Shown here: piece after piece, positions 6,020 to 39,021 of the stretch
Layout: the number at the start of each line of letters is the position of its first letter
How positions within the stretch are numbered: position 1 is the first letter of the stretch
From: Metallosphaera yellowstonensis MK1
Lineage (GTDB): Archaea; Thermoproteota; Thermoprotei_A; Sulfolobales; Sulfolobaceae
NCBI RefSeq assembly: GCF_000243315.1
Contig: NZ_JH597761.1
Span: 377,878 to 421,928, forward strand
Direction of reading: 5' to 3'
DNA: 44,051 bases
The notes under the pieces: model-generated
The model's database searches: none
The model's input: only the letters and a program-made list of their open reading frames with translations
What the model was told of the DNA's origin: nothing
Made by a program: the position numbers and the translations under genes

Positions 6020-7393
6020 ATGTTCAGGACAGACCCAACCTTTTACCCCTCGTCTAGGGCTGCCATGAGAGCCCCAAGAGAGGACTTGGCGTATGTTGCC
6101 TGTCTCTACGAAGGAACCGGCCTCAATAGACCGGACTTCATGGCGGTAGTGGACGTAGACCCCTCCTCCCCTACGTACTCTCGGATAGTGGGAAAGGTAG
6201 AGCTCAACAACGTGGGAGACGAACTTCATCACTTCGGATGGAACGCCTGTTCCTCCTCCCTGTGCCCCAACGGTAAGCCAAACCTGGAGAGGAGGTTCCT
6301 CATAGTCCCTGGACTCCGTTCATCTAGGATATACGTGATAGACACCAAACCGGATCCCAGGAACCCCAAGCTGACCAAGATCATCGAGCCCGGAGAGGTG
6401 GTAGAGAAGACTGGGTATACCAGGTTACACACTGTACACTGTGGTCCTGACGGGATCTACATAAGTGCATTAGGGAACGAGAAAGGGGAGGGACCAGGCG
6501 GGATATTGATGTTGGATCACTTCTCGTTCGATGTATTGGGGAGATGGGAGTTGAACAGGGGAGACCAATATCTGGCTTACGACTTCTGGTGGAACCTACC
6601 CAACGAGGTGATGGTGACCAGCGAGTGGGCTGTCCCAAACGTCATGGAAGGTGGCCTCAGGTTAGAACACCTTAAGGACAGATACGGTAACAGGGTGCAC
6701 TTCTGGGACCTGAGGAAGAGGAAGAGAGTCTCCTCTATCACCCTCGGGGAGGACAACAGGATGGCCTTGGAGTTGAGGCCACTTCACGATCCTACTAAAC
6801 TCATGGGATTCATTAACGTAGTGGTGAGTCTGAAGGACCTAAGTAGTTCCATTTGGCTGTGGTTCCACGAGGACGGGAGGTGGCAGGCTAGGGAGGTCAT
6901 CAATATCCCAGCGGAGCCTTCTGAGGGAGGATTGCCTGAGATCTTGAAACCATTTAAGGCCGTGCCCCCACTGGTCACTGACATAGACCTCTCCCTGGAC
7001 GACAAGTTCCTTTACGTTAGCCTGTGGGGAACGGGAGAAGTCAGGCAGTATGACGTCACCGATCCCTTCAGACCTAGACTTACCGGAAAAGTGAAAGCTG
7101 GAGGTATACTGCACAGGGAGGACCATCCCATGGGGAGGCTCACCGGAGCCCCACAGATGCTGGAGGTGAGCAGGGACGGGAGGAGAATATATGTGACCAA
7201 CTCGCTCTACAGTTCCTGGGATAATCAGTTCTACCCGGAGGGAATAAGGGGATGGATGCTGAAGTTGAACGCCGACCCTGAAGGGGGACTCATCCTAGAC
7301 AGGGACTTCCTGGTGGACTTCGGTGAGGCTAGGTCACATCAGGTGAGACTGAGGGGTGGAGATGCTAGTTCTGACTCTTATTGCTACCCTTAG
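6020..7393 (+). CDS. Methanethiol oxidase / selenium-binding protein 56 family
   Basis: 457 residues, beta-propeller SBP56 family. Members oxidise methanethiol to formaldehyde, H2S and H2O2 and bind copper. Key conserved stretches are ELHHFGWNACSSSLC (H70, H71, C77), TRLHTVHCGPDGIYISALG (H137, H140, C141), WWNLPNEVMVTSEW, and a C-terminal SHQVRLRGGD. The Cys usual in the last motif (GGDC) is Ala here, and the tail ends with an atypical SSDSYCYP. The length is close to the family norm. The ATG at 6020 fits a leaderless promoter. The gene overlaps the downstream membrane protein gene by about 38 bases, so the two are probably co-expressed. The upstream palindrome suggests sulfur-dependent control. 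Confidence 0.88.
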   Translation: MFRTDPTFYPSSRAAMRAPREDLAYVACLYEGTGLNRPDFMAVVDVDPSSPTYSRIVGKVELNNVGDELHHFGWNACSSSLCPNGKPNLERRFLIVPGLRSSRIYVIDTKPDPRNPKLTKIIEPGEVVEKTGYTRLHTVHCGPDGIYISALGNEKGEGPGGILMLDHFSFDVLGRWELNRGDQYLAYDFWWNLPNEVMVTSEWAVPNVMEGGLRLEHLKDRYGNRVHFWDLRKRKRVSSITLGEDNRMALELRPLHDPTKLMGFINVVVSLKDLSSSIWLWFHEDGRWQAREVINIPAEPSEGGLPEILKPFKAVPPLVTDIDLSLDDKFLYVSLWGTGEVRQYDVTDPFRPRLTGKVKAGGILHREDHPMGRLTGAPQMLEVSRDGRRIYVTNSLYSSWDNQFYPEGIRGWMLKLNADPEGGLILDRDFLVDFGEARSHQVRLRGGDASSDSYCYP

Positions 7394-7967: not shown

Positions 7968-8033
7968 CCAGCAGTTATGGGACTTTCCCTTAAATATCGC
8001 CCTGTAATCAAGGCAAAATCTAATAACTGCTGT
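7968..8033 (-). mobile_element. 66-bp miniature inverted-repeat element (copy c), overlapping the end of a gene
   Basis: It reads CCAGCAGTTATGGGACTTTCCC at the plus-left end and CTAATAACTGCTGT at the right. The 5-base flanks ACTCC (7963-7967) and TCTCC (8034-8038) match at four positions. It lies between convergent genes. On the minus strand its end AACAGCAGTTATTAG supplies the last four codons and stop (NSSY*) of the M23-fold gene. Confidence 0.82.
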
Positions 8034-8847
8034 TCTCCCTTAAAATTTCGCTCAGACTGACTGAGTCCCCCTCCTTCAACCCCAGTCTCCTATACAACCT
8101 CACCACTGGGTTCCTCCCGTATCCCAGCACGAACTCCATAAGTGCTCTCCTCCCACACACGGGTTTGTTGGAGAGAACCTTGAATGAGGCGTCCTTCTCC
8201 CAATTTCTCAAGACCCCACGTCTCATCTCAAAGAGGGAATACCTAGGCTTTGCCACCTTAACCTCACCTAACCTGACCCCCAGGCAGTTCACCTCCCCCT
8301 TCCTCAACTTTACTCCAACCACCCCTCCGTAACAGGCCCAAGGTATGCTCCCGTTGAGCAAACCTCCCGAACACGGAACTCCCGTCAGCTTTCCAGCCCA
8401 AGCTGGTTGAGTTACCTCCAGGTCCAGGTAATACGTGGACCTCCTGATGACAACAGCATCGTCTCCTCCCTCAGGTTTCGTGACCTTAGGAATCACTACC
8501 CTCAGTCCCTCTAAGTGAGCGTGAGGAATGTCTCCTCCACTGTACGGCGTGGAGATGAAGTACCCCAGTCTCTCTCCTCTCCTCACGGTGTCGCCTCTCA
8601 CCTTGATTGGCTCAACGTGGAGTACCTTCACCAGGGATTCCCTAGTCCTGATTAAGGTCACCACGTCGTAACTCCTCTCAGCCCTCCTGTTGGGCCTCCC
8701 TATCTCCACAACCTCCACACTCTCAACTACACCGTCCACCGGGGAGTAGAACACGTCTATGTCTACGCTACCAATGTCAATGGCCTTTCCTCTGACGTGG
8801 GAGGCGAAACCGCTGGAGAAAAAGCTCAGTAGGTAACCTTCCTTCAA
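8020..8847 (-). CDS. M23/LytM-fold protein in the lipoate-assembly operon
   Basis: 275 residues, TTG start, 12 bases after the stop of the upstream radical SAM gene. The first 115 residues carry the metal-ligand pattern of M23 peptidases: H17 and D24 (SHVRGKAIDIG), H77 (VKVLHVEP) and H109-A-H111 (DIPHAHLEG), in a small beta-rich fold (YSPVDGVVESVEVV, GDTVRRGERLGYF) that also resembles lipoyl/biotinyl domains. There is no signal peptide, so a cell-wall role is unlikely; archaea of this type lack peptidoglycan. The C-terminal half has several Cys (VPCSGGLL, IPWACYGG, VNCLG, KPVCGRRA) and no known motif. Operon position suggests a role in lipoylation or in handling the lipoyl protein. The last residues (NSSY) and stop come from a transposed miniature element, so the native C-terminus may be lost. 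Confidence 0.68.
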   Translation of the reverse strand: MKEGYLLSFFSSGFASHVRGKAIDIGSVDIDVFYSPVDGVVESVEVVEIGRPNRRAERSYDVVTLIRTRESLVKVLHVEPIKVRGDTVRRGERLGYFISTPYSGGDIPHAHLEGLRVVIPKVTKPEGGDDAVVIRRSTYYLDLEVTQPAWAGKLTGVPCSGGLLNGSIPWACYGGVVGVKLRKGEVNCLGVRLGEVKVAKPRYSLFEMRRGVLRNWEKDASFKVLSNKPVCGRRALMEFVLGYGRNPVVRLYRRLGLKEGDSVSLSEILRENSSY

Positions 8848-8859
8848 GAAAATTCTCGA

Positions 8860-9930
8860 TCACTGAGAGAATTTGTTAATCAGTGAGGGTAACCTGGTTT
8901 GTCTTATGGACTTCAAGGCCTGCTCCCTGTTGGGATACCACGGGTAGTTCCTCATTTCCATCCCGGGTCTCTCGTTGGAGTACGGTCTGTTACATCCAGG
9001 ACAACCGGAGGTCATGAATGCGGGCGCCAGCTCCTCCAAGGTGAGATCCTCGGGAACCTTCATGTCCACTATCCTGCCCTCCTGGTCGTACAGGATATCT
9101 TCAGGGGTTATCAGGTCGTTCTCGATCAGCCACCTGGCCAACTGAACTCTCCTATACACGTTAACCGGTGCAGGCCTCCTCCTCTCCATGACCGTGTTCT
9201 GCTCAGGGTAGAAGGCGAACAGGGTTATCTTGGCACCCCTTTCATGGGCGTACCACATCAGGTCCACGGCCTCTCTCTCGGTCTCTCCAAGCCCTACGAT
9301 CAGATGTACCCCGGCGTTGCCTCTTCCGAAGACCTCCACAGCCTCATCTATGCCCTCCAGGTATCTCTCCCACCTGTGCATACTCCTGACCATCTTCCCT
9401 CTGGTCTCCTCAAAGACCCTCTTACTGGCTCCATCTATGGCCACATCTATCATGTCCGCCCCGTACTTCCTCATGTCCACCAGGTGTTTCTTGAAGGTGT
9501 AGGTAGGGGTGACCAGCTCTGAAATCCTGAGCTCTATCCCCTCCTCCCTTATCCTCCTAGTTATCTCAACTGCATCCTGAGCCGCCCTAGGGTGGGCCAA
9601 CTCTCCCACACAGATCCCTTGTAACCCTAATCTCGGGTCTCCTTGTCTCTCCTTGATCCTCCTGAGGACGTCATCGAGTCTCCTTAGTGGCCACTCCACC
9701 CTTATGAGGGTCTTACAGTCTGGCCCCTGGGATACCTCCCTGGCCTGACCGCAATATGAGCAGTTGGCCTTACATCCGTCTGGATAGTACTGCAGGAGGT
9801 TTATGGTCGTGTTCAGTGCTCCCCTCAGGAATACTCCTGGGGAGAAACCGAGAACCATGTCGGCCCCGAAGCTGAGTCTAACCCAGTCGGGACTGCTTAT
9901 CCTTTGAGTTCCTTCTAGTCTCAGGGTCAT
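8860..9930 (-). CDS. Radical SAM lipoyl synthase-type protein (LipS1/LipS2 pair, member with C-terminal GCPGCNRPY)
   Basis: 356 residues from the ATG at 9930, whose first bases overlap the upstream stop (ATGA); a longer frame to 9978 exists but is less likely. The radical SAM cluster is C53-x3-C57-x2-C60 (CKANCSYC). C310 and C313 in SGCPGCNRPYSNERPG near the end probably hold an auxiliary cluster. Related proteins, often annotated as biotin synthase, act as a pair (LipS1 and LipS2) that together insert two sulfurs into octanoyl groups on lipoyl domains, replacing classical LipA. The ligase-rSAM-rSAM operon is the signature of that pathway in sulfur oxidisers and archaea. I cannot say by eye which of the two this is. 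A BioB-like role is the alternative. Confidence 0.78.
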   Translation of the reverse strand: MTLRLEGTQRISSPDWVRLSFGADMVLGFSPGVFLRGALNTTINLLQYYPDGCKANCSYCGQAREVSQGPDCKTLIRVEWPLRRLDDVLRRIKERQGDPRLGLQGICVGELAHPRAAQDAVEITRRIREEGIELRISELVTPTYTFKKHLVDMRKYGADMIDVAIDGASKRVFEETRGKMVRSMHRWERYLEGIDEAVEVFGRGNAGVHLIVGLGETEREAVDLMWYAHERGAKITLFAFYPEQNTVMERRRPAPVNVYRRVQLARWLIENDLITPEDILYDQEGRIVDMKVPEDLTLEELAPAFMTSGCPGCNRPYSNERPGMEMRNYPWYPNREQALKSIRQTRLPSLINKFSQ

Positions 9931-10829
9931 GACACGGACACCTGTGAAGATATGAAGTCGTGAACAACGTTGGCGCAACAGGCCGAACTAAACCTGAGCT
10001 CCCTCCTCCCCTTGGCATAATCGACTGTCTCCTCCTCAGGGAAGGCTATTCCGTCAACTCCGTAATCCACGGCGAACTTCTCCACCGGAAGATAGAGGTT
10101 CCCCCTGGGCCTGGCACAGCCCAACATGATGGGTATGCCAGGATATTCGTCCCTGGCCAGTTTTAACACCTGGATTATCTCCTGAGGGGAGGGTTCCCTA
10201 ACTAACTTGTACTCTCCAGTCAATGGCATCATGGCGACAACTATCAGGGCGTCAGGGCTGACCTCCTTGAGCATGAGCACTGCCTCGGCCTCACTGCCCC
10301 TCTTACTTAATCCCACCACAACGTGGGGAACAACCTTCAAGCCTGCCTGCTTCAGGAACTTAAAGGAGTTGAGGTAGTCCTCCACGGTGAAGGGTTGTCC
10401 TAGAACCTCCCTGATGATCTCGTCATCTCCCACCATGTCCAACAGGCCTACCTTGACACCTGACTCGGCGAACTTCTTGGCAACCTCCAGAGACCTGACC
10501 ACTCCAGTGTGTGCTATTACCGTGAGTCTGTCACTGTACTTCCTCACCACCTGGGAGAACCTCCAAACTGGCACTTCCCCCCTCGATGTCGAGCCCCCGG
10601 AGAGTATCACGCCCCTGTCACCATCCCTCACCGCGTCTCTTAGGATTTCCTCTAATCTCTGGGGAGTCGAGCCGTCACTCATGCCCTCCAATATCCTCCT
10701 TCCGCAGTGCTTACAGTTGAAGGCGCAAGAGGTTCCAGTCACGGAGACTGCCTTCCAACCCTTCCTCGAGTCCATGTAGTCCGTCTCGTACCTCTTGAGG
10801 TTCGGTGCGTACAGGAATAAGGGTTTCAC
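9927..10829 (-). CDS. Radical SAM lipoyl synthase-type protein (second member of the LipS1/LipS2 pair)
   Basis: 300 residues, GTG start overlapping the ligase stop (GTGA). The cluster motif is C35-x3-C39-x2-C42 (CAFNCKHC) after the N-terminal APNLKRYETDYM. A TIM-barrel-like body follows, with GVILSGGSTSRGEVPVW, VIAHTGVV, VGLLDMVGDDEII, VVPHVVVGLSKRG and MLGCARPRG. Paired Cys near the end (FSSACCANVVHDF) may be auxiliary ligands. Translational coupling on both sides to the ligase and to the other radical SAM gene argues for one pathway: sulfur insertion at C6 and C8 of protein-bound octanoate. The assignment rests on operon type and motif layout. Confidence 0.76.
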   Translation of the reverse strand: MKPLFLYAPNLKRYETDYMDSRKGWKAVSVTGTSCAFNCKHCGRRILEGMSDGSTPQRLEEILRDAVRDGDRGVILSGGSTSRGEVPVWRFSQVVRKYSDRLTVIAHTGVVRSLEVAKKFAESGVKVGLLDMVGDDEIIREVLGQPFTVEDYLNSFKFLKQAGLKVVPHVVVGLSKRGSEAEAVLMLKEVSPDALIVVAMMPLTGEYKLVREPSPQEIIQVLKLARDEYPGIPIMLGCARPRGNLYLPVEKFAVDYGVDGIAFPEEETVDYAKGRRELRFSSACCANVVHDFISSQVSVS

Positions 10830-11854
10830 TTGGAGGCCACCTCCCTTATGAGTGCTGATAGGTCAGCGGGGGAAATTCCCAAGATCTTCACTTCCTTTCC
10901 CCAATCCTTCACTTCTCTTTCTACGTCCTCTAACCTACTCCACTTGAGCCTAGCCTCCAGGTCGTATATGGCCCTCCTGGGCTCCACGAAGAAGTCTCCC
11001 GTGATCAGGACCGACTCTATGAGTCCTGGTCCAGCCCTCTTCACTTGAACCCTCACCAGACCTCCCTGGAACTTCCTCTCCCCTTCCACAACTCCCTGAC
11101 CCTCCAAGGACCTCCTCGTACCAAAGATCCACTCCCTAGATGAGTACTTAATCCTCAACTCCCTCAAGAGCTCCAATTCTTCCCCTGTGTAATTCCCATC
11201 CTTAAGCGCTTGGTTGAGGACCGAGCTGAAGGCCTCCTTAGCCGGCTTGATGATCTCCTCCATTCCCACGTTCCTCCCCAACTCCCTGCCTACCCACGTG
11301 AGTCTCTCCTTGAAGTCCTTGGCGATCTTGTCCTTCATCTTCTCAGTTGACAACTTCAAGACCTTAACCATCTCCTCAGGATCGAAGTTCACGAGGATGG
11401 TTCCAGTCACAGCGGTGAACCTTCCGAAGGAGAACGCACCTATTCCAGAGATTTTCCTTCCCTTGACCTCAACGTCGTTCTTCGGCCTGAAGTTAGCCTC
11501 TATTCCCATTTCCCTCAGCGTTCTGATCACCCCATCGGCACCCAACCTCATGGCGGTCTCTGGAGTTCCTCCAAGAGCGTCAGAGGGAGCGTAGATCTCC
11601 CAACCCAGTTGCATATCTCCCATTATTATGGTTCCTCCACCGGTCGGTCTCCTCCCTATACTCCACCCCCTCCTCTCAACCTCCTCAACCCTGACCTCCT
11701 GTTCCACCGCCTGATGATATCCCACTAGAACAGCAGTGGGCTTGAACACGACAAACCTCAGGACGGGTTCAGCCCCCCTAGCCACTGACTCCAACAAGGC
11801 CTCCTCTCCGGCAAGGATCAAGTCCTGAGGACCTTCCTCCACCATGAATCTCAT
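10826..11854 (-). CDS. Lipoate-protein ligase, sLpl(AB)-like
   Basis: 342 residues. The LplA catalytic core is clear: RRPTGGGTIIMGD (68-80), then NFRPKNDVEVKGRKISGIGAF with the catalytic-type Lys near 134, followed by TAVTGTILVNFDPEEM. A C-terminal accessory domain (KFQGGLVRVQVKRAGPGLIESVLITGDFF) corresponds to the LplB part, so both functions are in one chain. It would attach lipoate or octanoate, after adenylation, to a lipoyl protein such as the one at 14899-15321. It heads a four-gene operon (ligase, two radical SAM proteins, M23-fold protein). A TATA-like TTTTATAATACTT lies 25-40 bases upstream of the ATG. Confidence 0.85.
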   Translation of the reverse strand: MRFMVEEGPQDLILAGEEALLESVARGAEPVLRFVVFKPTAVLVGYHQAVEQEVRVEEVERRGWSIGRRPTGGGTIIMGDMQLGWEIYAPSDALGGTPETAMRLGADGVIRTLREMGIEANFRPKNDVEVKGRKISGIGAFSFGRFTAVTGTILVNFDPEEMVKVLKLSTEKMKDKIAKDFKERLTWVGRELGRNVGMEEIIKPAKEAFSSVLNQALKDGNYTGEELELLRELRIKYSSREWIFGTRRSLEGQGVVEGERKFQGGLVRVQVKRAGPGLIESVLITGDFFVEPRRAIYDLEARLKWSRLEDVEREVKDWGKEVKILGISPADLSALIREVASK

Positions 11855-12232: not shown

Positions 12233-13413
12233 CTAAACCCACCTACTCCCAGTGGGAGTGAGAAAGAGTTGGGGAAACCCACACATCTTGAGGAAGATGT
12301 TGAGGGATGCGTTCAGTTGCCTGTCCAAGGTGAAACCACACCTCTCACAACGAAAAGTCCGACCTTTCGGGAAACCCGTCCACATCTGGGGCAGGACTTG
12401 GAGGTGAGGTGAGGGTTCACCTCCTTAACTAAGGAGCCGTATAGTGGGGCCTTGTACTTCAACGCACGGTGGATCGACCTCCATACAGTCCTTGAAATCT
12501 TCTTAGACAACCTGTCGTCAGTGTCTTGGAACATCGACTGCTTGTTCAACTTCTCTATGGCGAACGTAGTCACGGGATACATCTCAAGGAGCTCGTTGAC
12601 GAACTTGTGAACGTAATCTAGGACGCGGTCCCTTTCGCGGTGGGAGTACTTCCTCATCAACACTTTCCCTTTCCTACCGTGCTTTGAAGCGAAGGACTTG
12701 ATTCTACCCCTCTTCAACTCCATCCCAAACTTGAGACTGTACAACTCCCTCAAGGAGAAAGTGACGAACTTCTCGCCGTCGTAAGCGTCCAGCGTGTAGA
12801 GGTTACTGTCGACTGCCAGGAAGTCCAGGGGAGTAAACCGGGGTAATTTGTGACGGAAAGGTAGGTGAACCTTGTCCTCCTTTATCACGGGCTCACCCAG
12901 TTCTAACCCTTTGACCCGTGGAGAGAACCAGGTGTGGGACCAGGAGAAGGTCAAGTACTGGTGAGGTTTTACTGTAATCCTAACAGTTTCGCCCTCAACC
13001 TTCCTCAGAGTAGACTTAACCCTTAGGTAAACCCTCTTCAATCTAGGTTTCCTCAACGACGCTCGTCCTTTTTCGGCCCTCCTCCTCCAACCTTTCAACA
13101 CGGAGTAAGCGTCTCTTATGGCCTTATCAGCGTAGTGGGAAGCTAGATTGTTGATCTTCTCAAGCTCGTCTCTCAACGTCCTGTACACTCCCTTCTTCTC
13201 GGGGAGGGTTATCTTGACCTTCGTGAAGGTTTTCTTACCCTTTTTAACCTCCTTCCTCTCAACCTTGATCCTCTCCCACAACCAGTCTAAAGCCCTCTGC
13301 AGTAGGACACTGTAGTTCTCCAGCAGTACCCTGCTCTCCTCCCCCTCGTCGTTCTTCATGGAGTAAGTTAGGTAGACGTACTCCTCCTCTGGCTGAAACG
13401 ATTTAAGCCTCAA
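12233..13413 (-). pseudogene. tnpB: TnpB RNA-guided nuclease of IS607, frameshifted in the zinc ribbon
   Basis: The frame is open from a TTG at 13413 (about 366 residues). RuvC-I Asp is D202 (LAVDSNLYTLD), RuvC-II Glu is E287 (FAIEKLNKQSM), and the first ribbon pair is C341/C344 (SKSCPRCG). At about 12365 one base is missing. The second Cys pair and the last catalytic Asp (CERCGFTLDRQLNASLNIF) are in another frame that stops at 12233-12235. The uncorrected frame ends early at 12313 with an aberrant tail. TnpB enzymes cut DNA with an RNA from the element's 3' end. A single indel makes this copy probably inactive, unless it is a sequencing error. Confidence 0.8.
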
Positions 13414-13977
13414 TTTCCTCGACGCACTTCCTCACCTTTTCGTACTCGTGACTCCCCACTCCGTACAGTTTTCCACATAAATGATACCGGTATAGAGATC
13501 AAGTCTTAGACCAGTTGCCGCTCAGGTGTTTTGTCCTCCCTATTTAGAACGACTATCTCACAATGTGCTTTGCACACTTCCTCTACTATCTCGAAGCCGA
13601 ACCTAACTAGTCTGTCTGGGTAGGCTATGGCTTTTGACACCTCGTTGTTTAGTATCATTCTCAGTGATTTGAGGAATCCTCTCCTCTCCGTGTTTAATGA
13701 AGATCCCACGTCAGTTATCACCTGGTCGTCCTTTAACGGTCTCCTCTAGGTATTTCACTTGGTTTATCAAGTCGTCTTTTTGTGTGTTCGATACCCTAGC
13801 GTATAATATTACTTTCCTCTTTCTAACAATTCCCATTAACTTTTCTACATCCTCTTCTCTAAACCTCCACTTTCCAGTCTGTAGTACTACTGGTTTTATG
13901 TATCCCTTCTTTACGTATTCTCTGAGTGTTGCATAGGATATTCCTAAGCGTTGGCATACTCCTTTAGGTCTTAGCAT
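13403..13977 (-). pseudogene. tnpA: IS607 TnpA serine recombinase, frameshifted and interrupted by stops
   Basis: An N-terminal MerR-like helix-turn-helix (PKGVCQRLGISYATLREYVKKGYI) is followed by the serine recombinase start KVILYARVSN, with the catalytic Ser in ARVS. The frame ends GDN-stop at 13711. The continuation VITDVGSSLNTERRGFLKSLRMILNNEVSKAIAYPDRLVRFGFEIVEEVCKAH is in the +1 frame. Another stop follows after ERQLV, and a further shift precedes CGKLYGVGSHEYEKVRKCVEEIEA. The gene normally makes the transposase that moves single-end circular intermediates; here it is dead or needs recoding. The first break coincides with that of the copy at 20377. Confidence 0.85.
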
Positions 13978-14364: not shown

Positions 14365-14859
14365 TTAGCCTAGTCTCAGTCTCAAGAGGGACTTGACGAG
14401 AGACTCCACGGTGCTGGCCTGGATGAAGGGGCTATACACGGAACAATCCGCGAATCTCCTGAGGCAGGCCACCTTAATCCTGGAGTCCGAGTACCTGACC
14501 GAGAGGAGGTCCAGTGGGGAGGAACCTATCACGACTGTTTTCATGGGGTCCCAGTCTGTTCTTGCTAGGAGTGCCTTCACTGGTTCCCCACTGGGCTTCG
14601 TCTTGATTGTATCTTCCCTGACCACCACCAGTTGAGGTTCCAGACTGAGGGATTTCATCACCTTCATAGTTTCGTCTCTTGTGAAAGGAGAGAGGATCGC
14701 GTATCTCCTCGTCCTCAAAAACTGGAGGAGTGGTCCTATGTCCTCGAACGTCTCACCTCTGAGGGAGAGGTCTACAGGATCACCCGAGTACGCCCTGTAG
14801 AGCTCCTCCGTAAGGTCTTGATTCACCAGGACACCGTCGATCCATAAGGCCAGTGGCAT
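14365..14859 (-). CDS. Degenerate HAD-superfamily protein, divergent from the lipoyl carrier gene
   Basis: 164 residues. It has the HAD core layout: an N-terminal strand ALWIDGVLV, then ILSPFTRDE (motif II position), a Lys in TIKTKPSGEP (motif III) and VVIGSSPLDLLSVRYS (motif IV). The catalytic pattern is eroded: FDxDGT is reduced to WIDG, without the nucleophilic first Asp, and GDxxxD has become GSSPLD. A phosphatase activity is therefore doubtful, and a binding or scaffold role is possible. It shares a 39-base divergent promoter with the lipoyl protein gene, which links the two. ATG start. Confidence 0.62.
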   Translation of the reverse strand: MPLALWIDGVLVNQDLTEELYRAYSGDPVDLSLRGETFEDIGPLLQFLRTRRYAILSPFTRDETMKVMKSLSLEPQLVVVREDTIKTKPSGEPVKALLARTDWDPMKTVVIGSSPLDLLSVRYSDSRIKVACLRRFADCSVYSPFIQASTVESLVKSLLRLRLG

Positions 14860-14898: not shown

Positions 14899-15321
14899 AT
14901 GCAGATAGGACAGTTCGATTTCCCTGATGAGCTGCTTTACGACCCTGAGAAACACCTATGGTTCAGGTTCCAAGGGGACGTGGTGGAGGTGGGTATGACC
15001 AGCTTGGGACAATACATGGCGGGAAAGATCTTTCAGGTCACAGTCAAGGGAAGAGGGGAGGAAGTTAGTCCCAGATCTGTGGTGTTCTCCTTGGAGTCGG
15101 CCAAATGGATAGGGAAGTTTAGACTTCCCCTTGAGGGAGAAGTGGTAGAGTATAACGAGGAGGTCGTCAGAAACCCGAGTCTCCTCAACTCAAGTCCTTA
15201 CTCAGCGTGGATAGTGAGAATTAAGGTTAGGGATGCGGAGAAGAGTAAGTCCAAACTGAAGAGCGTAGAGGAGGCGAAGGGATCGTTCGAGAATGAGGTC
15301 AAGAGGCTAGTTAGGAGGTAG
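14899..15321 (+). CDS. GcvH/LbpA-type lipoyl-carrier protein
   Basis: 140 residues. The hybrid-motif lipoyl domain is clear: YDPEKHLWFRFQGDVVEVGMTSLGQYMAGKIFQV, then SLESAKWIGKFRLPLEGEVVEYNEEV, with K69 the lipoylated Lys, and NSSPYSAWIVRIKV. Proteins of this fold act as H-protein of the glycine cleavage system or as LbpA, the lipoate-binding partner of the sHdr sulfur-oxidising complex. Lys followed by Trp instead of Ala (ESAKW), the nearby lipoate-assembly operon and the sulfur-oriented surroundings favour an LbpA-like role. No glycine cleavage or hdr genes are in the window to settle it. The tail is Lys/Glu-rich and helical. Confidence 0.82.
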   Translation: MQIGQFDFPDELLYDPEKHLWFRFQGDVVEVGMTSLGQYMAGKIFQVTVKGRGEEVSPRSVVFSLESAKWIGKFRLPLEGEVVEYNEEVVRNPSLLNSSPYSAWIVRIKVRDAEKSKSKLKSVEEAKGSFENEVKRLVRR

Positions 15322-15615: not shown

Positions 15616-16473
15616 TTAACTAATCATTACGTTCAGTCCTTTGGCGTAGTTCCTTACTATTCTATTAATCTTGGAGCCAGTTAGGACTGGGATTACTCCC
15701 TTATCCTGTCTCTCTTGGAGGATCGCCTTGGTCTTCAGTAAAAGGACGTCCACGTCTTTTGGCTCCGCTCTCATCTTCACCTCTAGGACGTAAATTTTCT
15801 CATTGGTCTCCACAATTGCGTCGACCTCCCCATGTTCCGTCTCATACTTCCTGTAAATATTGAGGATCGCCTGGTTTTCCCTGACTAGACGGTTGATGAA
15901 ATTCGAGATGTAGACCTCTTCCGCCACAAGTCCCAGGTCGCTCCTGGTCGCCTCGACCTTGGAGTCCACCTCCTGGATCTTCCTCTCCAGGTCGGCCTTG
16001 GTGTTGTGGAGATCGTTCCTGGTCGCCTCGACCTTGGAGTCCACCTCCTGGATCTTCCTCTCCAGGTCGGCCTTGGTGTTGTGGAGATCGTTCCTGGTCG
16101 CCTCGACCTTGGAGTCCACCTCCTGGATCTTCATGTCAGAGGCCGAGATCCTCACCTCCAAACCCTCAATTCTCTTGAGTAACTCCTGCCTTATCTTCTC
16201 GTCGTTGGCAAGTAACTCCTCTCTGGTCTTCCTTATTTCATCCCTGAGGTTCCTCTCGACTTCCACTAACCTATCCATTAACCGTCTCTCCAGGTTAGCG
16301 TTCAACTCCGTCAACTTGTTAACCAAGTAAACTACATGATCTCTCAACTGTGTGTTAGCCATGTAGTTAGCTACGATTTGTGTCTCGCTATTAGTCAACT
16401 CCTGTCCCTTCCTTATCTTCTCAATAACTCTCTCCAAGAAGTCCTTGTACCACTTCTCTAGCTCCTCTCCCAT
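15616..16473 (-). CDS. Coiled-coil protein with C-terminal PD-(D/E)XK nuclease-like domain
   Basis: 285 residues. Residues about 50-175 form a long coiled coil containing near-identical copies of a 25-residue unit (QEVDSKVEATRNDLHNTKAD). The C-terminal domain has the restriction-like core EHGEVDAIVETNEKIYVLEVKM (Glu, Asp, then ExK), followed by an alpha/beta segment. This resembles the DUF3782-type proteins common in Sulfolobales, whose function is unknown; nuclease activity is an inference from the core motif. A second, differently built member is at 26240-27121. It is a single gene with an A/T-rich upstream region. Confidence 0.72.
   Translation of the reverse strand: MGEELEKWYKDFLERVIEKIRKGQELTNSETQIVANYMANTQLRDHVVYLVNKLTELNANLERRLMDRLVEVERNLRDEIRKTREELLANDEKIRQELLKRIEGLEVRISASDMKIQEVDSKVEATRNDLHNTKADLERKIQEVDSKVEATRNDLHNTKADLERKIQEVDSKVEATRSDLGLVAEEVYISNFINRLVRENQAILNIYRKYETEHGEVDAIVETNEKIYVLEVKMRAEPKDVDVLLLKTKAILQERQDKGVIPVLTGSKINRIVRNYAKGLNVMIS
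15943..16131 (-). repeat. 75-bp intragenic tandem repeat, about 2.5 copies
   Basis: The segment starting CCTGGTCGCCTCGACCTTGG occurs at 15943, 16018 and 16093. The 75-base copies are almost identical and the third is partial. In protein this adds 25 residues per copy to the coiled coil (two heptads plus one hendecad). The near-identity at DNA level shows recent duplication or gene conversion. Confidence 0.9.
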
Positions 16474-26239: not shown

Positions 26240-27121
26240 TCATTCCTTTCTCTTTACCACTCTCCCTATTACGAGTTCCACTCCCATCTCCTTGGCCTTC
26301 CTCTTAATTTGAGGATAGACCTCACGGGCTACGGTCAGTGCTATGAGATACTTTCGTGGTTCTGCACCGAACCTCTCTCTAACCAATTTCGCCTTTCTCA
26401 TCAACTTGTCCAACTCTGTTAGCGAATCAGCGTGACCCGTTACCTCCCCCACTATTAGGGGATTTTCGCTGAAAATATCTATTTCCTCAGAGTCTAATAC
26501 CTTTCTTCGCAATGAGGCATTTTTAGGAAGTACACCTAGACCCTGTAGATAATTCTGCAGGAAATTCCTGGACAGTTCCTCCAAAGACATCCCAGCGAAC
26601 TTGGACATTTCTGCGAAACCGTTGAGCATGGCTTTGAACAATGAGTCTATCTTCTCGTCCCTTTTCTTGCCCTCCTCTTTCATCTCCCTAATCTCCATTA
26701 ACATCTTGTTGAAGTCCTCCCTCAACTTCTTGGTCTCCTCCCACAGGCGAGCGGTCTCCGTACGCATCTCCTCCCTCAGGCTCGTTATCTCCCTGTTGAA
26801 GTCCTCCCTCAACTTCTTGGTCTCCTCCCACAGGCGAGCGGTCTCCGTACGCATCTCCTCCCTCAGGCTCGTTATCTCCCTGTTGAAGTCCTCCCTCAAC
26901 TCCTTAAGATCTTTACGTAATTCTGTAGTTTCCTTTCGCAGGTCCCTTATCTCCTCCCAAATTTTTCCCTGGCTCTCAAGTATTGCCTGGACATTCCTGT
27001 TCAGCTCCTGCTGTTCTTTAACTAAAGATTCCAGGACTACGTTCTCCAGTAGCCTCCTAAGCTTCTCTCCCAATGCTGGGTTACTACTTATCTCCTCGAT
27101 TAATTTCTCCGTGAGCGACAT
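26240..27121 (-). CDS. Second coiled-coil protein with C-terminal nuclease-like domain
   Basis: 293 residues. After a short helical N-terminus, residues about 35-155 are a long charged coiled coil with two near-identical 29-residue units (LREDFNREITSLREEMRTET plus ARLWEETKK) and a partial third. The C-terminal 110 residues show SEEIDIFSENPLIVGEVTGHADSLTELDKLMRKAKL, a plausible PD-(D/E)XK-like core in which the ExK is GEVTG, so the Lys is missing or displaced. It may be an inactive relative of the protein at 15616-16473. It lies opposite in strand to, and inside, the aromatic gene cluster, between mobile-element debris and the dioxygenase gene, suggesting it arrived by transfer. Confidence 0.68.
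   Translation of the reverse strand: MSLTEKLIEEISSNPALGEKLRRLLENVVLESLVKEQQELNRNVQAILESQGKIWEEIRDLRKETTELRKDLKELREDFNREITSLREEMRTETARLWEETKKLREDFNREITSLREEMRTETARLWEETKKLREDFNKMLMEIREMKEEGKKRDEKIDSLFKAMLNGFAEMSKFAGMSLEELSRNFLQNYLQGLGVLPKNASLRRKVLDSEEIDIFSENPLIVGEVTGHADSLTELDKLMRKAKLVRERFGAEPRKYLIALTVAREVYPQIKRKAKEMGVELVIGRVVKRKE
26708..26895 (-). repeat. 87-bp intragenic tandem repeat, about 2.2 copies
   Basis: GTTGAAGTCCTCCCTCAACT starts at 26708, 26795 and 26882. The full 87-base copies are essentially identical and encode 29-residue coiled-coil units (one heptad plus two hendecads). Confidence 0.9.
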
Positions 27122-34556: not shown

Positions 34557-35699
34557 TTATTTGGAGCTTTTAAGTGAGGAATCTGACCTCTCAAACGATC
34601 TCTTGAGAATCGTCAGTACCTCTGGCCTTATCATCTCTCTAGGAGGTTCCACTCCCTGAGAGAGCATCCTCCTCACTTGGGTCATGGATATCTTGACCCT
34701 TAAATCACCATCGTGATCACAGTTCCTCTCGCTGACCACCCCGTCACATCTCCTACAGTAGAAGGCCTCACCTAGGGCAATAACCTCTATGCCTAAATCG
34801 AGTTCCTTTAACGCCTTTTGGGCGCCGTACGGATCATAGTACGAACCGACTCCTGCCATATCCCTTCCTACAACGAAGTGGGTACAACCGAAGTTCTTCC
34901 TTATTATCGCCAGGAAAACTGCAGCCTTCGGTCCGGCGTACCTCATGGCAATGTTCAATGTGTCAAACAGAACCTTACGTTTAGGTAAAAACTCGTCTAT
35001 GAACACCTTATAGGACTCTACTATGACCTCTGGAGGAAAGTCGTCTGTCTTCAGTTCACCCACCACGGGATGAATCAGGACGCCGTCTACGAGTTCCATG
35101 GCCGTCCTTATGACATACTCGTGGGCCCTATGCGGAGGGTTCCTAGTTTGGTAACCAGCGACGGTCTTCCATCCAAACTTGGAAATTTCCTCCCTGACCT
35201 CCCTAGGTGTCCTATCTCCGGTTATCCTTTTCACCAGTTCGATACTCCCTGAGACTGCGAACTCACTCATCTCCATGGTTTGTCTAACCCCTGGATGTGC
35301 AGGATCCAACGTACCGTAAACTCTCTCCGCGAACCTCCTCCTATCTAACCGGAAAGTCTCCTCCACAGTCATCACAGCGAATCCCTCACTTCCATGGGTT
35401 AACAGAATCTCCTCGCCCACCTCTACCTCAAGGCCTCTCCAGAGGGGGAGTATGATAGGGATCGTCCATGGGAGACCACTCTCAAGTGTACCTCGCTCCA
35501 GTACACTCTCCACCTCCCCGCTGCCCATGAAGCCCTCAAGGGGGGAGAACGCTCCCACCGCGATTTTCTCCGCATCCAAAGCGTATCTCTTAGGGATCTC
35601 CACCTTCCTTAATTCCTCTGGCACGTGTTTCCTCACCCTCTCCACTAATCTCCCTCCGTATGGCGAATTCACTTCACTCACCACCGGTGTGAATTCCAC
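34557..35699 (-). CDS. sat: Sulfate adenylyltransferase (ATP sulfurylase)
   Basis: 380 residues. Catalytic motifs are QTRNPPHRAHE (184-194) and GRDMAGVGSYYDPYGAQ (278-294). A zinc site typical of archaeal Sat is C315-x2-C318, C327 and H329 (CRRCDGVVSERNCDHD). The enzyme makes adenosine 5'-phosphosulfate from sulfate and ATP; in the dissimilatory direction it can yield ATP from APS. With this start it overlaps cysH by 26 bases; a GTG at 35684 or 35681 would reduce the overlap. It is second in the cysH-sat operon. The gap of about 130 bases downstream to the broken MFS gene holds nothing clear. Confidence 0.92.
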   Translation of the reverse strand: MEFTPVVSEVNSPYGGRLVERVRKHVPEELRKVEIPKRYALDAEKIAVGAFSPLEGFMGSGEVESVLERGTLESGLPWTIPIILPLWRGLEVEVGEEILLTHGSEGFAVMTVEETFRLDRRRFAERVYGTLDPAHPGVRQTMEMSEFAVSGSIELVKRITGDRTPREVREEISKFGWKTVAGYQTRNPPHRAHEYVIRTAMELVDGVLIHPVVGELKTDDFPPEVIVESYKVFIDEFLPKRKVLFDTLNIAMRYAGPKAAVFLAIIRKNFGCTHFVVGRDMAGVGSYYDPYGAQKALKELDLGIEVIALGEAFYCRRCDGVVSERNCDHDGDLRVKISMTQVRRMLSQGVEPPREMIRPEVLTILKRSFERSDSSLKSSK

Positions 35700-36378
35700 A
35701 TTCCTTGCTCCCCATTTCCCACCACCATCTTCCTGCCCTGGGATGCTCTCCGGGCCTTATCGGCCTGGTGCAAGGTGCACATCCGATACTGGTATATCCC
35801 ATAGAGTAGAGCTTGTTTACCGGCACATCGTTCTTCCTTATGTAATCCCAGACCATCTCCCACGTCCAATCAGCCAGAGGGTTGACCTTTAAGATGTTTC
35901 CGTGTATCCTGTCCACCTCAACCTTACTCACAGTCCTTCTGGTCTCCCATTGATCCCTCCTCAACCCCGTGATCCAAGCCCTAAGATCTTTGAGCGCCCT
36001 CCTCAAGGGTTCAACCTTCCTGATGTCACAGCACAGCCTCCTCAAGGAAGGGTCACGGTAGAAAAGATTGACCCCATACTTCTTTACCATCTCCTCCAAC
36101 CTCGCCGTGTCTGGGAAGTAGACTTCCACCTCCACGCCGTAGAGCTCCCTTACCTTGTCCATGAGTTCGTAGGTCTCCTGAGGTAATCTCCCCGTATCTA
36201 AGGTGAACACCCTTATCCTTCCTATCCTGCTGGCCATGTGAAGGATAACCATGTCCTCCGCTTGAAAACTGGAAGCTAGGGCAACCTTCTCCCCAAAGGT
36301 CTTCATGGCCCACTCAATAACCCTTTCTGCCGGTTCTCCTTGCAGGGCGTGAACTTCCCAATTGGTCTCCATTTTCAT
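35674..36378 (-). CDS. cysH: Adenylyl-sulfate (APS/PAPS) reductase, Fe-S type
   Basis: 234 residues. The PP-loop-like nucleotide site is SSFQAEDMVILHM (36-48) and FTLDTGRLPQETYEL. C116-C117 (RRLCCDIRKVEPL) and C200-x2-C203 (SIGCAPCTRPI) form the [4Fe-4S] signature of APS-reducing enzymes. The catalytic Cys is C227 in SKECGIHTG. It reduces APS (or PAPS) to sulfite with thioredoxin-like donors. The ATG at 36378 lies about 25-35 bases from TTTTATTTAATAGG on the minus strand, so it is leaderless. The tandem TGCAA-N3-TTGCA sites are just upstream of that TATA box. Confidence 0.92.
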   Translation of the reverse strand: MKMETNWEVHALQGEPAERVIEWAMKTFGEKVALASSFQAEDMVILHMASRIGRIRVFTLDTGRLPQETYELMDKVRELYGVEVEVYFPDTARLEEMVKKYGVNLFYRDPSLRRLCCDIRKVEPLRRALKDLRAWITGLRRDQWETRRTVSKVEVDRIHGNILKVNPLADWTWEMVWDYIRKNDVPVNKLYSMGYTSIGCAPCTRPIRPGEHPRAGRWWWEMGSKECGIHTGGE

Positions 36379-36397
36379 CTCTGCAAAGGAACGTGGC

Positions 36398-36413
36398 CTA
36401 TTAAATAAAACTA
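36398..36413 (-). promoter_or_regulatory. TATA box of the cysH-sat operon
   Basis: On the minus strand AGTTTTATTTAATAGG is centred about 27 bases before the cysH ATG at 36378. The first operator arm begins 9 bases further upstream. Confidence 0.5.
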
Positions 36414-36421
36414 ATTACTTG

Positions 36422-36449
36422 TGCAAGATTTGCAGTGCAAAAGTTGCAC
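36422..36449. promoter_or_regulatory. Tandem palindromic operators in the divergent sulfate-assimilation promoter
   Basis: TGCAAGATTTGCA (36422-36434) and GTGCAAAAGTTGCAC (36435-36449) are perfect inverted repeats with 3-base spacers. Their centres are 14 bases apart, between the TATA boxes of cysH and of the sulfite reductase gene (AATTTTTTAAATCG, 36457-36470). The core and the distance to the rightward TATA box match the site before the methanethiol oxidase gene (5964-5980). Confidence 0.65.
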
Positions 36450-36490
36450 CTATAGGAATTTTTTAAATCGAGGGAGCCCCAAACTTCTCC

Positions 36491-38302
36491 ATGATTTTGA
36501 AGGGGAAGCCCGTAACTCCGTCCTTCAGGACCTCACCGGAGGAATGGAGTAGGGAGGAATGGGCGAAGCTGAGAACCAAGGGATTCACTTCTGTGCCTGA
36601 GGAAATTAAGGAGGAGTTTAGGAACGACAAGGAAGATCTCTCCTTCGAGGCGGAGACAATAGCCAAATCCTGTGGGATCTATCTGGAGTTCAACAGGGAC
36701 AGGTTCAGGAGAGATGGGGTGAAGGAGTTCATCTATATGATAAGGATAGTTGTTCCAGGCGGGGGTCCTATAACCGCAAGGCAATGGAAGATCCTTGACG
36801 AGATAAGCGATCAATACACGATATCTGATGCCTACACAGGCGAACCAAAGCCATCCCTTAGGCTGACCACGAGACAGGACGTCCAACTACATCACGTGAG
36901 GAAGAGAGATCTATTGGATGCCATAAGGGAGATAGCGAAGTCTGGATTCTTCACCCTGAATGGTTGTGGAGATAACGTTAGGAACGTCGTGGCCTGTCCC
37001 CTCTCCTCTTTCTCAAAGATATTTAACGCCAACTCGTTGGCTAAGAGCATAGCCTCCTACTTTAGGCTCCCAACAGGGCCCTACCTGGAGATCTTCGAGA
37101 TAGATCCAGCAGGCATTACGGAGAGAGGGACGGAGAGGTTCAATTACTCTGAGAACCTCCTGAACAGGAAATTCAAGATAGCCGTCTCAGGTTTACACGA
37201 ATTGAACGGCAAGATCTTGAGGGATAACTGTGTCGAAGTGAGGACGAACGACATAGGGATAGTTCCGGTTGATGGGAGGAAGTTTCAGATCTACGTGGGG
37301 GGAGGACAGGGTGAGAAGCAGGGAATTTCCACCTTCTCCTGTCTCGGAAGACCCTTAGGTATCTTCAGCGAGGAGGAGTTGATGAGGGCACTCCACGCCC
37401 TGGTGGAGGTTCAACAGGAGTGGGGAGACAGGAAGAACAGACAATGGGCCAGGATGAAGTACCTGGTTCATAGCCTAGGGATAGGCTGGTTTCAGGAACA
37501 ACTGAAGGTTAGGGGAATCAGTTTTGAACCTCCAGACGAGGAACTAGACGTAGGTCCGAGGATGCTTCACCTGGGCAGGATAGAGATGGGGATCGAGGGC
37601 TACGGTCTGTTTATCGAGAACGGTAGGGTCATAGACAGGGAGGGAATGATGTATAAGACCATGTTGAGGGATCTGGCTGACTCTTATCCCGGCGTGAAGT
37701 TCTTCATAACCCCAAATCAACACCTGTTGATCACTGACGTGGACGACGTCAAAGAATTGGAGAGGTTTATGAGAAATTACCTTAAGAGAACTCCGTCGAA
37801 ACTCAGGACTATGTCCATCGCCTGTGTAGGCTTCCCGACTTGTAAGCTCTCGTTCACCGAATCGGAGAGATTCCTTCCGAACCTAATGAGCAAGCTAGAG
37901 CAAGAGTGGGGGGATATGGAGGAGACTATCGGTGTCTCGGGATGCCTGGCCCAATGTTCTAGACCCGGAACCAAGACCATAGGCTGGATAGGTACTGGAT
38001 ATAACCTTTACATGTTGAAGATAGGAGGTGACGCTGAGGGTAGAAATCAAGGGGGACCGCTCGTTGACCCAGAAACAGGAGAGACTTATCTGACGCACGT
38101 ACCCGGTGAGAGAGTGGCAGATGTAACTCAGGCCCTCTTCCAGCTATATAGGGATCTCGCTCCCCCAGAACTGAGGAGGCCTGGAGGAATGGGACCCTTC
38201 TTAAGGTCTTTGGGAAACAAAAGGATCATAGAGTACCTCAAGGCGGATCCTAGGACCAGGGACCTCATGAGGTCAACAATCAAGGCTGAGGTGAAGACAT
38301 GA
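36491..38302 (+). CDS. Assimilatory sulfite reductase (siroheme, Fe-S; NirA/CysI family)
   Basis: 603 residues. The siroheme/[4Fe-4S] ligands are C445-x5-C451 (CVGFPTCKLSFTESERF) and C485-x3-C489 (SGCLAQCSRPG). Earlier landmarks are RLTTRQDVQLHHV (substrate/siroheme Arg residues) and NGCGDNVRNVVACP (158-170). The two-fold repeat architecture and length match single-chain ferredoxin-type sulfite/nitrite reductases. In this setting sulfite from CysH is the likely substrate, reduced by six electrons to sulfide. The ATG at 36491 is about 21-34 bases after the TATA box, so the transcript is leaderless. It overlaps the SUMT gene by ATGA, a logical pairing since SUMT makes the siroheme precursor. 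Confidence 0.9.
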   Translation: MILKGKPVTPSFRTSPEEWSREEWAKLRTKGFTSVPEEIKEEFRNDKEDLSFEAETIAKSCGIYLEFNRDRFRRDGVKEFIYMIRIVVPGGGPITARQWKILDEISDQYTISDAYTGEPKPSLRLTTRQDVQLHHVRKRDLLDAIREIAKSGFFTLNGCGDNVRNVVACPLSSFSKIFNANSLAKSIASYFRLPTGPYLEIFEIDPAGITERGTERFNYSENLLNRKFKIAVSGLHELNGKILRDNCVEVRTNDIGIVPVDGRKFQIYVGGGQGEKQGISTFSCLGRPLGIFSEEELMRALHALVEVQQEWGDRKNRQWARMKYLVHSLGIGWFQEQLKVRGISFEPPDEELDVGPRMLHLGRIEMGIEGYGLFIENGRVIDREGMMYKTMLRDLADSYPGVKFFITPNQHLLITDVDDVKELERFMRNYLKRTPSKLRTMSIACVGFPTCKLSFTESERFLPNLMSKLEQEWGDMEETIGVSGCLAQCSRPGTKTIGWIGTGYNLYMLKIGGDAEGRNQGGPLVDPETGETYLTHVPGERVADVTQALFQLYRDLAPPELRRPGGMGPFLRSLGNKRIIEYLKADPRTRDLMRSTIKAEVKT

Positions 38303-39021
38303 AGGTACACGTAGTGGGAGCGGGTCCTGGAGATCCGGAACTCATCACAGTCAAGGGATTGAGGTTGATCGCCGAGGCAGACATAGTGGTGTTGGACAGG
38401 CTAGTTCCCAAGGAGCTGGGCGGAGAGAAATCCGTGCCTATATCTTCTCTTCAGGATCCAGTGCGGTTCATGGCGGTGAACGCAAGGGAGGGTAGAAAGG
38501 TGGTCTGGCTCAAGAACGGTGACCCCTCTGTTTTTGGTAGGCTCCTGGAGGTATGTGCTGAACTCTCCCAGTGGGGCGTACAGTGTGAGGTAGTACCCGG
38601 GGTTTCCAGCGCAATAGCTGTTCCGGAACTCTTTGGAATTCCTTTGACCCTCCCAGGAGTGCATAGCTTCACTGTCCTTACGGCAGTTAAAAGAGGTAGG
38701 GAGGCATTATCCTCAAAGGAAATTCCAAGATGTGGCACACTGGTAATATTGATGGGGCTAGGAGTGATAGGACATCTCAAGAGGGAGTTACTGAAGGTGA
38801 GAGATCCAGATGAGGGAGTGGCAGTGCTATCCTGGTCCGGGGAGTCCAGAATGGAGGCCGTGGGAAACCTTAGGGATTTAGACAGACTATCCTCCGGCTT
38901 CAAGCCTCCAGCGGTGATAGTTGTAGGCGAGGGGGTAAAAAAGAGAGTTCCCTTTGCAGTAGAGGAACCCTCCTTGAACGAGAGATCATGTTTGAGGGCA
39001 AATAGCGTGATGGGAGATTAA
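38299..39021 (+). CDS. cobA: Uroporphyrinogen-III C-methyltransferase (SUMT)
   Basis: 240 residues. SAM-binding and active-site stretches are HVVGAGPGDPELITVKGLRLIAEADIVVLDRLV at the start, VVWLKNGDPSVFGRLLEVC, CEVVPGVSSAIAVPELFGIPLT and GTLVILMGLG. It methylates uroporphyrinogen III to precorrin-2, the precursor of siroheme needed by the sulfite reductase encoded just upstream; it also feeds cobalamin synthesis. The start overlaps the upstream stop by four bases. The tail (LNERSCLRANSVMGD) has a Cys of unknown relevance. Confidence 0.9.
   Translation: MKVHVVGAGPGDPELITVKGLRLIAEADIVVLDRLVPKELGGEKSVPISSLQDPVRFMAVNAREGRKVVWLKNGDPSVFGRLLEVCAELSQWGVQCEVVPGVSSAIAVPELFGIPLTLPGVHSFTVLTAVKRGREALSSKEIPRCGTLVILMGLGVIGHLKRELLKVRDPDEGVAVLSWSGESRMEAVGNLRDLDRLSSGFKPPAVIVVGEGVKKRVPFAVEEPSLNERSCLRANSVMGD

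Follow-up and report, generated by a model that had tools for sequence, protein, structure and literature searches.

Enzymes of the M23 family known so far, to our knowledge, cut peptide bonds, mostly Gly-X bonds or peptidoglycan cross-links, and not acyl-lysine. In LytM-type enzymes, the first His and the Asp are spaced as H-x3-D. LECT2, a secreted animal protein, has a solved M23 fold, and we know of no peptidase activity for it. M23 and lipoyl domains have a common barrel-sandwich fold (SCOP).

The closest described pathway for the locus studied here is the sLpl(AB)-LipS1/LipS2 route of lipoate assembly, whose reported accessory partner is LipT, an FAD oxidoreductase (PMC10332631, PMC9585515). 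According to PMC10332631, the sLpl(AB) characterized from a sulfur oxidizer accepts octanoate and lipoate solely in their free form; the same is assumed for the archaeal ligase, since archaea lack ACP, and the octanoate donor of the archaeal LipM enzymes is left open. Removal of lipoyl groups is known from the Ser-Ser-Lys amidohydrolase Lpa of E. faecalis and from the sirtuins CobB, SrtN and SIRT4 (PMC5596343). Term searches of the main text of the lipoate papers PMC10332631, PMC9585515 and PMC6067878 and of the Sulfolobales sulfur papers PMC11323534 and PMC8551704 returned no M23-type or deacetylase partner, and neither did wider searches of the openly available literature. Both the fold family and the pathway are known, and in the literature searched their combination was not found described.

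The operon and its carrier

The window, by which we mean the whole stretch of 44,051 nucleotides analyzed, carries a tight operon of four co-directional genes at 8020-11854 on the minus strand, in the order lipoate:protein ligase, LipS1, LipS2 and a 275-aa M23-fold protein. These genes, and the carrier gene with its neighbor, are as follows.

10826..11854, minus strand: sLpl(AB)-like lipoate:protein ligase (Lpl) that combines an LplA-type catalytic part and an LplB-type C-terminal one (PF21948, E 1.5e-38)
9927..10829, minus strand: LipS1-family lipoyl synthase, radical SAM (NF053742, E 1e-55); its GTG start overlaps the Lpl stop
8860..9930, minus strand: LipS2-family lipoyl synthase, radical SAM (NF053743, E 8e-68)
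8020..8847, minus strand: M23-fold protein, 275 aa, TTG start
14365..14859, minus strand: HAD-family protein whose gene forms a pair with that of the carrier, a pairing kept in loci L130 and L131
14899..15321, plus strand: GcvH-family lipoyl carrier of a divergent (~100-bit) subtype, by family-model match

The coordinates given in the preliminary description were confirmed on the open reading frames, together with the GTGA overlap at the Lpl/LipS1 junction, the ATGA overlap between LipS1 and LipS2 and the 12-base gap between LipS2 and the M23-fold ORF. The longest reading of LipS2, which ends at 8860, begins from a TTG at 9978, and the most likely start is the ATG at 9930 within the ATGA overlap. 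A TATA-like CTTTTTATAATAC lies within an A/T-rich stretch about 30 bases 5' of the ligase ATG, and would be consistent with a single promoter for the four-gene operon.

The same description had assigned the first three genes to the alternative lipoate pathway, and family-model matches agree with this. The ligase matched LplA-B_cat (PF21948) with the E value listed above and TIGR00545 with an E value of 2.8e-39; its residues 258-336 matched the LplB model (E 4e-13, 49 bits, cut-off 65), and a match to Lip_prot_lig_C (E 0.004) was also under that model's cut-off. An LplA catalytic domain and an LplB part are therefore found on a single chain, as in sLpl(AB). LipS2 matched the equivalog model NF053743 over its full length at 229 bits (cut-off 270), and LipS1 matched NF053742 over nearly its full length at 189 bits (cut-off 230). 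Given that both scores are under the equivalog cut-offs, and that LipS2 proteins from the lip operons of other Sulfolobaceae also scored only about 228-243 bits against NF053743, we regard the window LipS1 and LipS2 as divergent relatives of the model families. As in the sLpl(AB)-LipS1/LipS2 pathway (PMC10332631, PMC9585515), lpl, lipS1 and lipS2 are joined in one operon, and a GcvH-like carrier is encoded about 3 kb away.

This carrier, noted previously at 14899-15321, proved to be a GcvH-family protein and is likely to be the modification target of the lipoate operon. In the interval between the operon and the carrier gene, we also observed a transposase-like ORF (12313-13413; OrfB/TnpB type, by eye) and its MerR/serine-recombinase-like partner (13506-13977). 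An unassigned, membrane-like ORF of 187 aa, convergent with the lip operon, adjoins a gene at 6020-7393 encoding an SBP56 selenium-binding or methanethiol-oxidase-like protein (E 2.5e-201).

The M23-fold protein

The window protein matched Pfam M23 (PF01551) with an E value of 0.022 and 15.4 bits, against a Pfam cut-off of 28.7. Despite this score, the M23 assignment is sound, because 16 of the 21 members of the protein's family matched the same model (best E 4.3e-6), a PDB profile search with the family returned LECT2 as the best match along with ShyA, TagE and lysostaphin, and the fold predicted by AlphaFold2 from the protein alone, a check proposed in the preliminary description, placed LytM and other M23 enzymes on top of its PDB matches (best E 6.7e-3). 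The best 30 of these matches were all M23-family or M23-bearing structures, presumably including the two from phages (ranks 10 and 21). The model had a modest mean pLDDT of 70.9, with the core mostly at 80-93 and the H17 loop below 50, and another query sequence gave a poorer model (63.2). The model and its PDB matches place the protein in the M23 barrel-sandwich fold. The residues that had been proposed as its metal site are encoded by the following codons of the M23-fold ORF.

8799-8797, minus strand: H17
8778-8776, minus strand: D24
8619-8617, minus strand: H77
8523-8521, minus strand: H109
8517-8515, minus strand: H111

These supply the metal ligands (H, D, H) and the catalytic residues (H, and H of HxH) of M23 enzymes, and the proposed site was borne out by conservation. 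All five residues are invariant in the 21 Sulfolobaceae orthologues, which show 41-49% identity to the window protein. In alignment A2, which adds relatives at 21-26% identity, 12 invariant columns are left and include all five, for which the probability by chance is 6e-8. The five residues are conserved in 38/38 homologues, down to about 21% identity, and S8, S12, P80 and E113 are likewise invariant in this wider set. This conservation rules out a chance ORF or a degenerate enzyme. An iron-sulfur or persulfide scaffold built on cysteines was also considered and rejected; C159 is kept neither across all Sulfolobaceae nor in distant relatives.

The protein resembles the M23 endopeptidases (LytM, lysostaphin, ShyA, Csd/TagE) in its core barrel-sandwich domain, its H..D ligands, its central His and its HxHxE motif. 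Unlike them, it has H-x6-D spacing between the first His and the Asp, the invariant S8 and S12, and a second, C-terminal beta domain for which no family-model match was found and which carries a G-x-x-P-x-Y-like motif in many relatives. It also differs from them in that inspection by eye revealed no signal peptide or membrane segment, and in that it occurs in a peptidoglycan-free archaeal host, within a lipoate operon. It has the M23 fold in common with LECT2 but keeps the full catalytic set. PHROGs and NCBIfam searches with the protein gave no useful match. The M23-fold protein is a member of a two-domain archaeal M23 subfamily that no Pfam or NCBIfam model fits.

Linkage to lipoate genes

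The preliminary description had set linkage to lipS genes elsewhere, together with ligand conservation, as the tests of its proposal, and the linkage was found both within and outside Sulfolobaceae. Among the 22 Sulfolobaceae genomes in the order sample, 21 carry the M23-fold gene, and in all 21 it lies directly 3' of lipS2, with lipS1 before lipS2. A scan of the collection with alignment A1 gave 4 loci. The sole genome without the gene, G119, has no lipS2, no true lipS1, no divergent GcvH-like carrier and no lip-linked deacetylase; unlike G119, the other Sulfolobaceae tested do have the divergent carrier. G119 nevertheless retains a pair of GcvH proteins and three genes resembling ligases. 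In Sulfodiicoccus acidophilus, two of the sHdr system's lipoate-binding proteins are reported to have been lost (PMC11323534).

For relatives outside Sulfolobaceae, 67 genomes were examined (27 from sample scans and 40 further loci). Direct lip linkage was found in five Thermoproteota families besides Sulfolobaceae, with varied gene orders: lipS2-lplA-M23-lipS1 in L082 (genome G318) and L163 (G629); lipS2-lplA-M23, at the end of a contig, in L181 (G628); M23-lipS2-lplA-lplB, with lipS1 on the opposite strand, in L169 (G655); and M23-lipS2-lplA-lipS1, with overlapping gene ends, in L187 (G615). In L165 (G581), L166 and L167 (G505, G506), the M23 gene adjoins lplA convergently; it is 1-4 kb from lplA in L114, L118 and L159, and about 7-10 kb from lip genes in L134, L135 and G283. 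Unbiased clustering of the neighbors ranked LplA first at the loci of the 67 genomes. Eight of the 67 show direct adjacency to lip genes. With an approximate chance of 0.7% per genome, this has a rough probability of about 2e-8 (4e-8 when counted by family), assuming six lip genes in 1800 and independent genomes. Supported branches (97/96) set the distant relatives apart from the clade of the Sulfolobaceae, and in a 38-row tree the lip-linked label, with the 7-10 kb cases included, needs at least five changes under supported branches. The possibility that the gene is a neighbor in one lineage only is ruled out by the lip linkage in other families.

We also compared the occurrence of the gene with that of lipS2. 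In two samples, lipS2 was enriched among carriers of the M23 gene (16/18 vs 131/379, p 1.7e-6; and 8/9 vs 51/125, p 0.003), shared ancestry being ignored in both. The three carriers without lipS2 in these samples are G121 (56% complete) and G448, both of which have LipS1, and G283, which has ligases only, one of them separated from the M23 gene by about 9 kb. However, in the class of G318, lipS2 was found in 32/53 carriers vs 175/257 overall (p 0.19), which is no enrichment, so strict co-occurrence with lipS2 was dropped as a rule. In addition, many genomes with lipS2 are without the M23-fold gene, and most relatives outside Sulfolobaceae, including those in the class of G318, have neighbors other than lip genes. 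The window genome also has a second, divergent lipS2-lipS1-lplA-lplB set (L146:5390-7995; G000:C19, ~163-166 kb) with no M23 neighbor, and comparable second sets in three other Sulfolobaceae (L077, L078, L079, compared without regard to a separate lplB) likewise have none. Given these exceptions, the M23-fold protein is an accessory component rather than an obligate one, tied to the ligase at least as strongly as to sulfur insertion.

A histone-deacetylase-family gene lies 3' of the M23 gene, often overlapping it, in 16/21 Sulfolobaceae; the g3 genomes G032 and G042 are without it. Two examples matched Pfam with E values of 4e-57 and 1e-59, and inspection by eye suggests that the zinc-site motifs usual in HDACs are in place. 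Deacetylase genes are located as follows.

L130:7776-8804
L132:7764-8801
G000:C19:214993-215997 (window genome)

Given this arrangement, a single operon of this kind may encode two amide hydrolases that depend on metal. As judged from sequence, the deacetylase is another candidate for an acyl-lysine hydrolase at the lipoate/sHdr locus. In longer Sulfolobaceae loci, DsrE, TusA, dihydrolipoamide-dehydrogenase-like and sHdr-like genes are close to the lip operon. In the window genome, the deacetylase orthologue (59% identity) is on contig C19 within an sHdr-like cluster, and the lip operon is on C10. The window LipS2 stands apart from its congeners, with which it grouped in 0% of bootstrap trees (AU p 0.024). 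For the M23 protein, the same test did not reject grouping with congeners (p 0.11). The whole lip operon, with the M23 gene included, may have been exchanged or relocated as a unit.

Proposed role and alternatives

Based on the strict linkage in Sulfolobaceae, the repeated lip linkage elsewhere, the joint absence in G119 and the invariant active site, we consider it very probable that the M23-fold protein belongs to the LplA/LipS1-LipS2 lipoate assembly machinery. The earlier suggestion of a new lipoate component stands to this extent, with two qualifications: the tie to the ligase is at least as strong as that to lipS, and in the class of G318 the gene showed no enrichment with lipS2.

As to its activity, we tentatively propose that the protein may be an amidase that acts on acylated lysine and returns the free acid to the ligase. 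It would be a cytosolic, metal-dependent and probably zinc-containing enzyme that hydrolyzes lipoyl- or octanoyl-lysine amide, in mis-modified or retired carrier or in lipoyl-lysine and peptides from turnover. The free lipoate or octanoate would then be handed to the ligase for re-ligation, or wrong modifications would be removed. An enzyme is favored because the catalytic histidines and metal ligands are invariant, and acyl-lysine amide hydrolysis because the linkage is centered on the ligase, whose substrates in archaea are assumed to be free acids (PMC10332631). The putative reaction resembles that of the lipoamidases in removing lipoyl from lysine, although these use a serine triad or NAD and are unrelated to the window protein in fold and chemistry. 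Counted against an amidase are the known M23 chemistry, the H-x6-D in place of H-x3-D, the G318-class result, the second lipS set without M23 and the many lipS2-positive genomes in which the gene is missing. More doubtful is the wider proposal that it would represent a new class of metal-dependent acyl-lysine amidase on the M23 fold, for lipoate or octanoate recycling or editing in ACP-less archaea. If this is true, M23, known mainly from peptidoglycan hydrolysis, gains a cytosolic role in cofactor metabolism. The octanoate source for lipoate in ACP-less archaea and the recycling of lipoate would also have a testable candidate for the missing step, in the form of a conserved metalloenzyme, encoded in an operon and linked chiefly to the ligase.

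Chief among the rivals is a genuine M23 endopeptidase whose substrate is one of the pathway's proteins, with a role in maturation of the ligase, a synthase or the carrier, or in breakdown of damaged lipoylated carrier. The full M23 catalytic set, with its two catalytic histidines and the Glu after them, would suit such an enzyme, the close structural matches are all peptidases or M23-fold proteins, and known chemistry would be retained. However, neither a candidate cleavage site nor a processed substrate came to light, and across the gene orders the linkage is centered on the ligase and not on a carrier gene, so we regard this explanation as rather unlikely. The preliminary description had offered a hydrolase or a scaffold as alternatives. 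A non-catalytic, metal-binding scaffold or chaperone, docking on the ligase or synthases through a barrel-sandwich fold related to lipoyl domains, ranks second among the rivals. The kinship of the two folds speaks for it, one distant member of the family matched Biotin_lipoyl_2 (E 7.6e-4), three matched PTS EIIA weakly, and the best PDB profile match was LECT2. Nevertheless, pseudo-enzymes normally lose some active-site residues, and here both catalytic histidines and all metal ligands are kept in every homologue, which makes a scaffold improbable and favors, as far as sequence can tell, the hydrolase half of the earlier suggestion.

A role in sulfur oxidation through the sHdr system, with the lip neighborhood explained by the use of LbpA in sHdr, fits the several Sulfolobaceae lip operons that lie near DsrE, TusA, dihydrolipoamide dehydrogenase-like and sHdr-like genes. 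In the window genome, however, the lpl-lipS1-lipS2-M23 block and the sHdr-like cluster are on different contigs, with the M23 gene staying with the lip genes and the deacetylase gene with sHdr, and the recurrence of the operon linkage in distant families may also speak against it; we therefore hold this role to be quite improbable. Least probable is a passenger gene, co-transcribed in Sulfolobaceae and without a role in lipoate metabolism. Most relatives outside Sulfolobaceae are indeed not beside lip genes, but the linkage repeated in six families and in different orders, the 21/21 retention and the joint absence largely contradict it.

Elsewhere in the window, the two proteins encoded at 15616-16473 and 26240-27121 each show, by eye, a coiled coil made up in part of nearly exact tandem repeats internal to the protein, with a nuclease-like C-terminus after it. 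A sulfate assimilation cluster was recognized by eye at 34557-39021, with ATP sulfurylase, PAPS reductase-like, sulfite reductase and uroporphyrinogen methyltransferase-like genes.
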